Assembly: GCA_947165275.1 (NCBI GenBank)
Contig: CAMUZQ010000004.1
Location: forward strand, 18,951 to 82,950
Length of the DNA: 64,000 nt
Reading direction: 5' to 3'
From: an uncultured Lachnospiraceae bacterium
Lineage (GTDB): Bacteria > Bacillota > Clostridia > Lachnospirales > Lachnospiraceae
Shown: piece by piece, positions 59,121 through 63,977 of the stretch
How the letters are laid out: every line of letters begins with the position of its first letter
Position numbering within the stretch: the first letter of the stretch is position 1
Notes under the pieces: model-generated
The model's input: only the letters and a program-made list of their open reading frames with translations
Databases searched by the model: none
What the model was told of the DNA's origin: nothing
Position numbers and translations under genes: made by a program

Positions 59121-59420
59121 ATGACAAAGAAAAGAAGCATTAAGATTTACGGTCAGAGTGGATATAAGTACCGGGAGACTCCCGCAATCTTGTTGAAGGG
59201 TCAGTGGCTGAAGGAAGCCGGATTTGAAATCGGTGATTATATTTCCGTCACGTTAGAGGATGGCAAACTGATAATTGCACAGGATACTGAGAGAGCAGCT
59301 CTAAAGGCCGCAGAAGAAGAGTTTATGGAAAGGGAGATGAAGAACCTGCAGAAGCGCTATGAGGCCGAGAAAAGAGCTCTGAGGGTTCAGATGGTAGCGG
59401 AACCGGGAGCGAGGTGGTGA
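59121..59420 (+). CDS. SymE-like (AbrB/SpoVT-fold) toxin family protein with C-terminal helical extension
   Basis: IKIYGQSGYKYRETPAILLKGQWLKEAGFEIGDYISVTLEDGKLII matches SymE family layout. Confidence 0.82.
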   Translation: MTKKRSIKIYGQSGYKYRETPAILLKGQWLKEAGFEIGDYISVTLEDGKLIIAQDTERAALKAAEEEFMEREMKNLQKRYEAEKRALRVQMVAEPGARW

Positions 59421-60835: not shown

Positions 60836-61555
60836 TTAGGAGAGGAGGCCCAGCTCCGTGAGTCTTATTGCTGCCGAAGTCTGTGAGACCTGATAAAATC
60901 CGGCAAACTGTTCCAGTATCCATTTGGATTTTGGTATATGCCCTGCGGACACATAAGGATTTTTCTTGCTTCGTTCAATAATCATCTGAAAAGCTTCCTC
61001 AACAGTTTCTCTTGGCATAAGAATTCGAGGTGCGATGCCGTTTGCCTGCCATTCCAGCCAATCGATATCCGTCCAGACTTCTTTCAGGTGTTCGCCTTTG
61101 GAATCTACCGGGCATTTGTTAGCTACAGCACGTCCTTCTTCAAGTGCTTCGAGTGCCATGAAGTATTTCTTGTGAAAAATCCAATGCACACATTCATGGG
61201 AGATAGTGTTTCTCCGGCTTCCGTGATTGCGCTTCATGTAGGTGTCCGGGTCGATTATCATGGTCTTTGCTTTTACAAAGACCTCTTTGTATTCATCTTC
61301 TGCGGGATCATATATCTCTACCAGACCGTCAGTAAAGCACATCTGACCAAGAATGCTAAGATCCTCTGACAGGCTGTATTCCTTGACGGTGAGATGCAAA
61401 TCATCTGTAGCAATCTTTTCGATAGGAACAGCCATTGGAGTCTCTAAAGCTTCCGGACAGAATTCTGCCAGGATATCTGCCGCCTTGTCATCGAATTGTG
61501 TCTTGTACATTCGAGGAACAAGGGAGCTTAAATATGCTTCCTTTGTCATAGTCAT
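60836..61555 (-). CDS. ImmA/IrrE-family metallo-endopeptidase
   Basis: Zinc motif ISHECVHWIFHKKY (HExxH), IrrE-like layout, overlapping upstream XRE gene. Confidence 0.87.
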   Translation of the reverse strand: MTMTKEAYLSSLVPRMYKTQFDDKAADILAEFCPEALETPMAVPIEKIATDDLHLTVKEYSLSEDLSILGQMCFTDGLVEIYDPAEDEYKEVFVKAKTMIIDPDTYMKRNHGSRRNTISHECVHWIFHKKYFMALEALEEGRAVANKCPVDSKGEHLKEVWTDIDWLEWQANGIAPRILMPRETVEEAFQMIIERSKKNPYVSAGHIPKSKWILEQFAGFYQVSQTSAAIRLTELGLLS

Positions 61556-61935
61556 CCTTTCTTGTCGATTTCTTCAAGTACCTTCTGCCAGAAATCGTCA
61601 CCGAGTTTTTTGTTGCTGGCCTTGCGGAGAGCAGCACGTACATGGGGAAGGTTTTCATCCATGATGTACTCCGGCAGATCAGGGGCAGCTTCGTTCCTTT
61701 CGCGTCCTGCAAGATCGAACATTTCTGCTTTCTCTTCTTCGGACAGGTGAAGGATTTCAGCAATCTTTAAGAGCAGGGACATTTCGGGAGGATTACGCCT
61801 TCCCTTGATGATGTCAGAAAGATAGGTTGCTGTGGTGCCCATTGCCTTAGCGATATCTTTCAGAAGGATGTCGCCGCCGTCTGATCCGCGACCGATACGC
61901 TTTTCGTTGATAAAATTTCCAAAGTCGCCTCTCAT
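61552..61935 (-). CDS. XRE-family HTH transcriptional regulator
   Basis: LKDIAKAMGTTATYLSDIIKGRRNPPEMSLLLKIAEIL HTH_3; overlaps ImmA start. Confidence 0.9.
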   Translation of the reverse strand: MRGDFGNFINEKRIGRGSDGGDILLKDIAKAMGTTATYLSDIIKGRRNPPEMSLLLKIAEILHLSEEEKAEMFDLAGRERNEAAPDLPEYIMDENLPHVRAALRKASNKKLGDDFWQKVLEEIDKKG

Positions 61936-62019: not shown

Positions 62020-62043
62020 GAAAAACCACACTTTTCAGTGTGG
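62020..62043 (-). terminator. terminator overlapping ASCH gene stop
   Basis: Minus strand CCACAC-TGAAAA-GTGTGG followed by TTTTTC; stop codon lies in loop. Confidence 0.8.
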
Positions 62044-62409
62044 CTCATCTTCGAGATATATGAATGATTGTGGTACATGATTGATGCCATAGTCTTCAAG
62101 CGACCTGGGCTCATCATAGGCAATCACATTTTTTAATTTGTATGCAACCGCAAGACGGCGACCTTTATAGTATTCACGAAAAAACTTGCGCGGGATTCCC
62201 GCAGCGTGTTTCGTGAGTTCCCATACGGTTGATGGAGCGCCGGATATAATCTCTTCAATTTCTGCTTCACCTACAATCTTGCTTTCCGGTGCAGTGGAGT
62301 AGAAGATGATTTTCGTTATATCCTCTCGGCATTGTCTGGTACGGAACTCAAATTCCTTGGTACCGTCTATAATGCGTTGAGCATACTCCGGCTTAATCGA
62401 TAATAACAT
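62035..62409 (-). CDS. ASCH-domain (PUA-like) protein
   Basis: MLLSIKPEYAQRIIDGTKEFEFRTRQ...IIFYSTAPESKIVGEAEIEEIISGAPSTVWELT family sequence. Confidence 0.82.
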   Translation of the reverse strand: MLLSIKPEYAQRIIDGTKEFEFRTRQCREDITKIIFYSTAPESKIVGEAEIEEIISGAPSTVWELTKHAAGIPRKFFREYYKGRRLAVAYKLKNVIAYDEPRSLEDYGINHVPQSFIYLEDEPH

Positions 62410-63481
62410 TGCTGACATCTATGTTGCCCTCCTGAAGTATTTTGTTGAATTGCTCGTGGGAGAGCTGCTGGGCAGAAGGGTAGGTATTACCCCAACATCC
62501 ATTGTTCTTCAACCATACCCAGTTGATATTGTTTCCCCCGCCAAAGAATCCATAGTAGACAAGCTCAATAATAACGAGGGATTTTTTGTTGTTATATTGA
62601 GTTTGTAATTCAAGTGGTTCGTATACAGATTTGTTTCCGATTTTGGAAGAATATTCTTCAAAGCTCATTGAAGCCTTTCCGTCCTTCTTGACCCAGGTAA
62701 TATTCTTTACCATGCAAAACGTTGTTACACAGGAATTATAACCTGGACTACCCGATCCGGTATGTTTGCGATATACAAAAACCGGGTCGCCTGCATGGAA
62801 TCCAAGTTGCGAAGTAGGTGATCCGATATAAATCTTGGATAAACCATTGCTTACATCAAGAATGACCTTGTCTGTATTATTCCTTTTGAGTTCCGAATAG
62901 GGGAATAGAGTGTCGTGGAAATAGTCATCCACAACCAAATAACCTGCTTCATCAAAGTCTGGATCGATGAAAGGGAATGATTTATAAGGATCGGAATAGT
63001 CGATGTTATTCCTGCTCTTTATATAGACACCTTCGCCATCCCGGTGACCGGCCAGAGTGAATCCGAACTTCGTTAACTGACCAATTAAATCTTGGTGTGA
63101 GTCATAGACAGTCACATAAACTTCATCATATCCGAAATCCTGCCATTTCCACAAAACAAGACCGAGAGCACCTTCGCCGAGTCGCTGGCCACGAAAGCGG
63201 GGAGCTATTAGGAAAGTAGATATCTTCAAGCGCTGTTTCGCCGGAAGTGTGCACTCATCTAATTCGATTTCTTCAGCTTCAGGCTTGATAGCAATAAACG
63301 CTCCAAGACCTTCATCATCATCAAATACCAGAGCGGTTCTGCCTTCTTTGGCTTTGGCATTAAACCAGGTGTTGAATTCGGTTGTTTTTACAGAGCCCTG
63401 ATAGTCGGATTTTAGTTGATCAAAAAAGGGATCTGCTAAATCAATGTCTGAGAACTTGCGTAATGAGAAAATACCAGCCAT
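62393..63481 (-). CDS. GNAT N-acetyltransferase fused to C-terminal domain (possibly PUA-like)
   Basis: N-terminal ISTFLIAPRFRGQRLGEGALGLVLWKW acetyl-CoA motif; C-terminal HAGDPVFVYRKHTGSGSPGYNSCVTTFCMV; SD AAGGAG. Confidence 0.78.
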   Translation of the reverse strand: MAGIFSLRKFSDIDLADPFFDQLKSDYQGSVKTTEFNTWFNAKAKEGRTALVFDDDEGLGAFIAIKPEAEEIELDECTLPAKQRLKISTFLIAPRFRGQRLGEGALGLVLWKWQDFGYDEVYVTVYDSHQDLIGQLTKFGFTLAGHRDGEGVYIKSRNNIDYSDPYKSFPFIDPDFDEAGYLVVDDYFHDTLFPYSELKRNNTDKVILDVSNGLSKIYIGSPTSQLGFHAGDPVFVYRKHTGSGSPGYNSCVTTFCMVKNITWVKKDGKASMSFEEYSSKIGNKSVYEPLELQTQYNNKKSLVIIELVYYGFFGGGNNINWVWLKNNGCWGNTYPSAQQLSHEQFNKILQEGNIDVSNVIID

Positions 63482-63496
63482 GTGATCAGCTCCTTC

Positions 63497-63958
63497 CTAT
63501 AGTGTTTTTATAAATGAAATAGCATTTTCAAGATCTTCGGCACCTTTGGAGATAAAAATCTTTGCGCCGATGTCCTGGGCTATTTCGAGTGCATAGGCTT
63601 TTTCTTCGTTCTGGAATTCCTCTATTCCTTGAACTGAGACATCTCTGCCGTCACGTTCTTTTCTCCGGTTGGAGATGATGTTCGGGTCCTCCGTCAATAG
63701 AATTATTGCCTCCGGTCTCAGAGATGTGAAAGTGTTAGATGGTATTCGTGTTACGACGCCTTCTCCGTTTAATAGGCAGAAATGACCATCAAGGATAAAG
63801 TTACCTTCTGATTGACGTAATTCCTGAACGGCATCTAGCAGATATTGCTGGTTATCGTCAATGTCCGGGATCAGCTTGTCGCTGGAGAACCCGGACTTCT
63901 TTTTCTCAGTAATCAGTGTACTGGCAGAGTATGTATTTATTGATATATTTGAACCAAA
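63497..63958 (-). pseudogene. 5'-truncated P-loop nucleotide-kinase-like protein (P-loop missing)
   Basis: Hand translation of minus strand gives FGSNISINTYSASTLITEKKKSGFSSDKLIPDIDDNQQYLLDAVQELRQSEGNFILDGHFCLLNGEG...; in-frame TGA at 63959-63961, no P-loop and no ATG/GTG start near the break. Confidence 0.55.
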
Positions 63959-63977
63959 TCACGCACCCTGTGCGTGA
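63959..63977. repeat. perfect inverted repeat at kinase truncation point
   Basis: TCACGCAC-CCT-GTGCGTGA. Confidence 0.85.

Follow-up and report, generated by a model that had tools for sequence, protein, structure and literature searches.

The window, the whole 64,000-nucleotide stretch of DNA that was analysed (G000:C4:18951-82950), belongs to a 2.88 Mb draft genome of Lachnospiraceae type, and on the right it runs to the end of a contig. Near that end three genes lie on the minus strand, in the order 5'-truncated kinase (63497-63944), GNAT fusion (62393-63481) and ASCH protein (62035-62418), followed by an intrinsic-terminator-like hairpin of 10 pairs with a T-rich tail (62046-62023, minus strand). 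The kinase and the GNAT fusion are 15 nt apart. A preliminary description of this DNA had given the same coordinates, strands, gene order and 15-nt gap, and had placed a terminator at the end of the unit, and all of this agrees with what we found. Its ~17-nt overlap between the GNAT and ASCH genes was counted from an internal second ATG at 62409 and had to be revised. We placed the ASCH start at 62418 because an AGGAGG Shine-Dalgarno site directly precedes that ATG and because close relatives have the identical spacing; the GNAT fusion ends at 62393, which makes the overlap 26 nt (62393-62418). Both genes are full length and have Shine-Dalgarno sites. Promoter-like sites were not commoner than in shuffled sequence.

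The GNAT fusion is an intact protein of 362 amino acids and a putative toxin. Its residues 1-160 (63002-63481) form the GNAT domain, which carries the acetyl-CoA-site motif RGQRLGEG and matches Acetyltransf_1 over residues 20-141, above the Pfam cut-off. The AlphaFold model of the fusion (pLDDT 76.7, pTM 0.77) retrieved GNATs with Foldseek at E-values down to 4.8e-6. The preliminary description had suspected a PUA-like C-terminus and had named the fold of this half as a check. A sequence search of the PDB with the C-terminal half alone gave no EVE entry, and GNATs took up the Foldseek list for the whole protein, so the EVE identity was tested with hhalign, using an EVE profile built from Pfam EVE matches in other Bacillota. 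The C-terminal half matched this profile with a probability of 94.4%; the two controls, the GNAT half and the reversed sequence, gave 1.0% and 0.2%. Pfam EVE was reached directly by 2 of 17 homologs of the fusion. By profile comparison, then, residues ~168-362 (62396-62980) are an EVE domain, a member of the PUA/ASCH superfamily, as had been suspected. The fusion matches PDC-M11A in PADLOC over its full length (E 1.2e-62) and phrog_6345 in PHROGs (E 7.6e-60), and both the fusion and the ASCH protein match phage families of unknown function in PHROGs. The window protein alone, used as query, gave no match in viral contigs.

The ASCH protein, a putative antitoxin, is intact at 127 amino acids and scores 25.1 bits against Pfam ASCH (cut-off 21.2), so that both the ASCH and the GNAT assignments made earlier stand above their Pfam cut-offs. 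It also matches PDC-M11B in PADLOC (E 1.5e-43). Its closest solved relative is ZmASCH (E 2e-21; PDB 5guq, 5y6b, 5y6c), and its AlphaFold model (pLDDT 90.5) superposes on 5y6c with a TM-score of 0.86 at 2.0 A. ZmASCH is a Mg-dependent RNase of weak activity that cleaves only single-stranded RNA, and its Tyr47, Gln127 and Ser128 are implicated in RNA binding or cleavage (PMC5615036). These three residues align with the invariant Y40, Q117 and S118 of the ASCH protein, whereas the position of Lys53 is a serine and a lysine follows one residue further on. Because ZmASCH has weak RNase activity, the ASCH protein may not be a passive antitoxin.

A search for intact kinase versions in related genomes, which the preliminary description had proposed, found one on a contig of Lachnospiraceae bacterium RGIG8315 from water-buffalo rumen (JAGACK010000021.1, hereafter L012; the same contig as G013:C14). 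This contig holds all three genes, and its 171-residue kinase has the P-loop GVHGVGKS, matches AAA_17 at 75 bits and is distantly like archaeal-type adenylate kinases. DNA homology between the window and L012 begins at 63945, and the window kinase therefore lacks its P-loop and roughly its first 23 residues. Over 148 codons the two kinases are 81% identical, with no stops and no frameshifts in the window, so that the truncation is probably recent. The open frame spans 153 residues, is bounded by a stop near 63961, just upstream of the homologous part, and has no start codon before residue ~88. The earlier label of kinase remnant therefore fits. The missing 5' part cannot be read because the assembly contig ends at 64000.

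The final 55 nt of the contig (63945-64000) are not homologous to L012 and contain a palindrome, TCACGCAC-AGG-GTGCGTGA, at 63959-63977. Twenty-five nucleotides of the palindrome region recur in one of 47 other same-genus genomes searched (L077), where the copy adjoins an ORF with a Zn_Tnp_IS91 domain (26.5 bits, cut-off 26.3). This neighbour makes a mobile element the likely cause of the truncation and the contig end a possible IS91-like element end. An IS200/IS605 end was also considered, from the hairpin and a TTCAA; the IS91-like assignment is weakly preferred because the sole exact same-genus copy lies beside the IS91-type ORF. Judging from these letters, and on thin evidence, a mobile element probably broke the window kinase; the contig ends 55 nt beyond the junction. 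The preliminary description had seen no transposase or integrase. This held for transposases in the 59-64 kb end of the window, where we found none, but the last ~55 nt do share the 25-nt palindromic stretch with an IS91-type neighbourhood elsewhere. The kinase is broken beside an intact GNAT-EVE and ASCH pair in three cases: in the window, on a Paenibacillus larvae plasmid (L030 4421-6117), where an IS630-family element splits the partner kinase gene, and in G529 (L098), where a TnpB-like sequence, identified by reading the translation, replaces the kinase N-terminus.

We then looked at 36 diverse loci, taken from sampled genomes, plasmids and phages and spanning Bacillota, Pseudomonadota, Bacteroidota and Campylobacterota. 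A nearby ASCH gene accompanied GNAT-EVE in 36 of 36 loci (on the opposite strand in two, one of them weak), and the two genes overlapped by exactly 23 or 26 nt in 26 of the 36. The kinase was present in 11, lying upstream in L012, L021, L090, L098, L101, L104 and L105 and downstream in Vibrio, Nitrosophilus, Paenibacillus larvae and L091. Among 42 IMG/VR phage loci, ASCH was found in all but one, which is cut by a contig end, and a kinase only in L076, where both partners lie on the opposite strand. In 10 of 10 plasmids that carry a kinase relative, GNAT-EVE adjoined it. GNAT-EVE itself occurred in 13 of 399 sampled Bacillota genomes and in 6 of 397 sampled family members (the window genome is counted in both); the kinase occurred in 4 of the 399, all among those 13 and all adjacent to GNAT-EVE. 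Kinase relatives in plasmids and sampled Bacillota were thus found beside GNAT-EVE, on either side, 14 times out of 14, while the kinase is present in 11 of the 36 loci; as a partner, this subfamily is therefore dedicated to the pair, but optional. The preliminary description had said that a lack of co-conservation would refute its grouping. These counts show the genes to be co-conserved, ASCH at all of the loci and the kinase at some.

GNAT-EVE was broken beside an intact ASCH gene at four loci (L013, L034, L044, L092), and the reverse was found at none. This fits an asymmetry between toxin and antitoxin, but with GNAT-EVE 2.8 times as long as ASCH a 4:0 split has a chance of about 30%, so the count is suggestive and not significant. 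One of the four, UBA3871 (L013 2887-4174), has a frameshifted GNAT-EVE, an intact ASCH gene and no kinase. Long ORFs consistent with PIN-type fusions, with no domain assignment, were seen in L089, L090 and L101.

The cassette proteins of the window and its congener L012 are 81%, 88% and 93% identical, with the kinase at 81% and the GNAT-EVE/ASCH pair at 88-93%. The median identity between the two genomes is 60% over 37 reciprocal best matches, some of which may be paralogs, and GNAT-EVE ranks second in identity among these 37. The helicase beside the L012 cassette has its G000 counterpart on another contig, at 64% identity. In a first search of the genus, GNAT-EVE was present in 2 of 37 genomes (the window's own counted and a weak GNAT-only match left out). 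Because the cassette is so much closer than the genome median, horizontal exchange is the simplest reading, and the sequences strongly suggest horizontal transfer of the cassette. In L012 (1798-5260), an IS66-type transposase and an HsdM fragment, both read from translations, lie upstream of the intact cassette. By its neighbours, the L012 cassette is also in a mobile or defence region.

The window's own island (59-64 kb) follows core genes, among them mutS2- and rlmD-like ORFs, which were named by reading translations. Downstream of the cassette, on the minus strand at 60836-61935, an XRE-type HTH protein (61552-61935) is followed by an ImmA/IrrE-like protein with HExxH (60836-61555; phrog_4031, E 4e-59), and the pair sits behind its own promoter-like site (62014-61986). 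An ImmA/IrrE and HTH pair also adjoins GNAT-EVE/ASCH on a Roseomonas plasmid (L033). A further toxin-type gene in the island encodes a SymE-family protein (59121-59420, plus strand; Pfam SymE_toxin, 49 bits).

GNAT-EVE fusions were described by Bell et al. 2020 (PMC7641849) as accompanied almost always by ASCH and often by an AAA_17 ATPase, and as common in prophages; their operons were predicted to be toxin-antitoxin systems, possibly acting on aminoacyl-tRNA. The window has the GNAT domain N-terminal to EVE and an adjacent ASCH gene. It resembles the (PIN)-GNAT-EVE/ASCH/AAA_17 operon (Iyer et al. 2013; PMC7641849) in having all three components, in domain order and in its Firmicutes and prophage distribution, and differs in having no PIN domain, in holding only a remnant of the optional AAA_17 kinase that is intact in L012, and in lying outside a recognised prophage. 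The cassette is not new in kind because Bell et al. 2020 describe exactly such an operon; by its domains it is a copy of an already described, biochemically unsolved mobile gene pair plus kinase.

Two annotated systems come close to it. PDC-M11 of PADLOC is a phage-defence candidate (PDC in PADLOC names means candidate) with components A and B, and both window proteins match these over their full length, side by side and from overlapping genes; the models cover two genes, and the window kinase matched none of them. In Escherichia phage PhiR47_2 (PV340567.1), homologs that are 31% and 42% identical lie between cI and kil and are annotated as 'GevT toxin' and 'GevA antitoxin', names that come from the GenBank record. 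This is the same fusion with an overlapping ASCH gene, although PhiR47_2 is a lambda-type prophage with no kinase and a 23-nt overlap. The preliminary description had guessed at a defence or toxin-type cassette, and the PDC-M11 match, the published operon and the PhiR47_2 annotation all bear this out, with function remaining a matter of inference. Our literature search found no papers naming PDC-M11, GevT or GevAT, and no toxicity, acetylation or phage-resistance data for any family member. The type II GNAT toxins of the TacT/AtaT class are also alike in that a GNAT is the proposed toxin of a two-gene unit with an antitoxin candidate. The antitoxin partner in that class is a ribbon-helix-helix protein. 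The window differs in its C-terminal EVE domain and its ASCH partner, which gave no ribbon-helix-helix match, and on this point it departs from TacTA/AtaRT.

The locus is a mobile GNAT-EVE/ASCH module whose dedicated AAA_17 kinase lost its 5' part, probably recently and through a mobile element; the identity of the parts, their co-conservation, the overlap and the truncation are shown by the sequences. We lean, somewhat beyond an even chance, towards a pair that acts as a toxin-antitoxin or abortive-infection unit. The toxin-antitoxin function would by itself be just as probable. The full-length PADLOC and PHROGs matches count for this reading, as do the published operon prediction, the GevT/GevA annotation, the constant presence of ASCH, the recurrent overlap and the EVE homology of the C-terminus. 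The kept fold and Tyr/Gln/Ser positions of the RNA-binding ZmASCH also count for it. The EVE domain would bind a nucleic acid that carries a modification, tRNA being the likeliest, and the GNAT domain would acetylate the bound RNA or its aminoacyl group, so that translation stops. RNA acetylation seems to us about evenly balanced, and aminoacyl-tRNA as its target is a tentative suggestion, the less probable side of the question. ASCH, made in strict translational coupling from the overlapping start, would restrain the toxin, and infection or loss of the locus would upset the balance and free it. The kinase would be an optional modulator and not an antitoxin; it is missing from two thirds of loci and broken where the pair is intact, which counts for its being optional, though we hold the modulator role at somewhat under even confidence. 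A more specific proposal, which we consider unlikely, gives this AAA_17 subfamily a dedicated role as third component: it would tune or reset the pair, for instance through phosphorylation of the toxin or of the same RNA end. Its repeated loss near mobile elements, with the pair left intact, would then mark an evolutionary passage from three parts to two, seen in progress at this locus.

Other arrangements of the same parts may be considered. The GNAT domain could instead acetylate a DNA base, with EVE and ASCH binding modified phage DNA in a defence or anti-restriction system and not a translation toxin. DNA bases were proposed as substrate by Iyer et al. (2013), as cited and discussed in PMC7641849, and some ASCH domains occur as fusions with HTH or HsdS, but PIN RNase fusions of GNAT-EVE point to RNA (PMC7641849) and ZmASCH cleaves only single-stranded RNA; we judge this unlikely. 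It is a little harder to believe that the effector is ASCH, acting as an RNase in the manner of ZmASCH, with GNAT-EVE as the sensor or restraining partner. The closest solved relative is indeed a nuclease, and the equivalents of Tyr47 and Ser128 are invariant in the window family, yet its activity is weak, Lys53 is off by one position, the PhiR47_2 record calls ASCH the antitoxin, and an intact ASCH gene beside a broken GNAT-EVE, as at the four loci above, would be odd for an unrestrained toxin.

Least probable of all, in our estimate, is that GNAT-EVE acetylates RNA and ASCH reverses the modification. YqfB is an ASCH-fold amidohydrolase of N4-acetylcytidine (ac4C) with Thr24 as nucleophile, and T24A abolishes its activity (PMC6972931). 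In an alignment by motif, which left Glu74 unplaced, its Lys21 and Arg26 match the invariant K21 and R26, but Thr24 is replaced by an invariant Glu24 in 18 of 18 aligned ASCH proteins, so that the Lys21-Thr24-Glu74 triad with Arg26 is incomplete, and in structure the model resembles YqfB much less than it resembles ZmASCH. A kinase without its P-loop at a contig end would fit a decaying, non-functional remnant island, but both genes of the pair keep their full length and their Shine-Dalgarno sites and show low dN against near-saturated dS, and the kinase is absent from two thirds of the related loci anyway; we consider decay very unlikely. The toxin-antitoxin or abortive-infection unit remains the reading we prefer.

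The locus is ordinary in kind, but it makes the kinase role testable. The GNAT-EVE/ASCH pair is found across phyla as well as on plasmids and in prophages, but according to PMC7641849 none of the GNAT-EVE operon modules had been characterised by experiment in these systems. The window and L012 hold the pair with a broken and an intact kinase, respectively, and so form a natural comparison for the role of the kinase. What is added here to the prior description is the invariable ASCH partner, the 23- or 26-nt overlap, the exclusive link between kinase and GNAT-EVE, and kinase breakage near mobile elements, seen at two other loci and probable here. The models worth testing are narrowed by the overlap, which is conserved, and by the exclusive link.

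A few loci have neighbours of their own. Prophage Lj965 (L024 2295-2871) has four tRNA genes (Ser, Glu, Tyr, Phe) directly upstream of GNAT-EVE/ASCH, and L075 has three upstream of the pair; a link to tRNA genes was rejected as a rule, since they lie near only these 2 of 46 loci and at none of the other 44. On the Nitrosophilus plasmid (L031 2465-4949), a second, stand-alone GNAT precedes GNAT-EVE, and ASCH is on the opposite strand.
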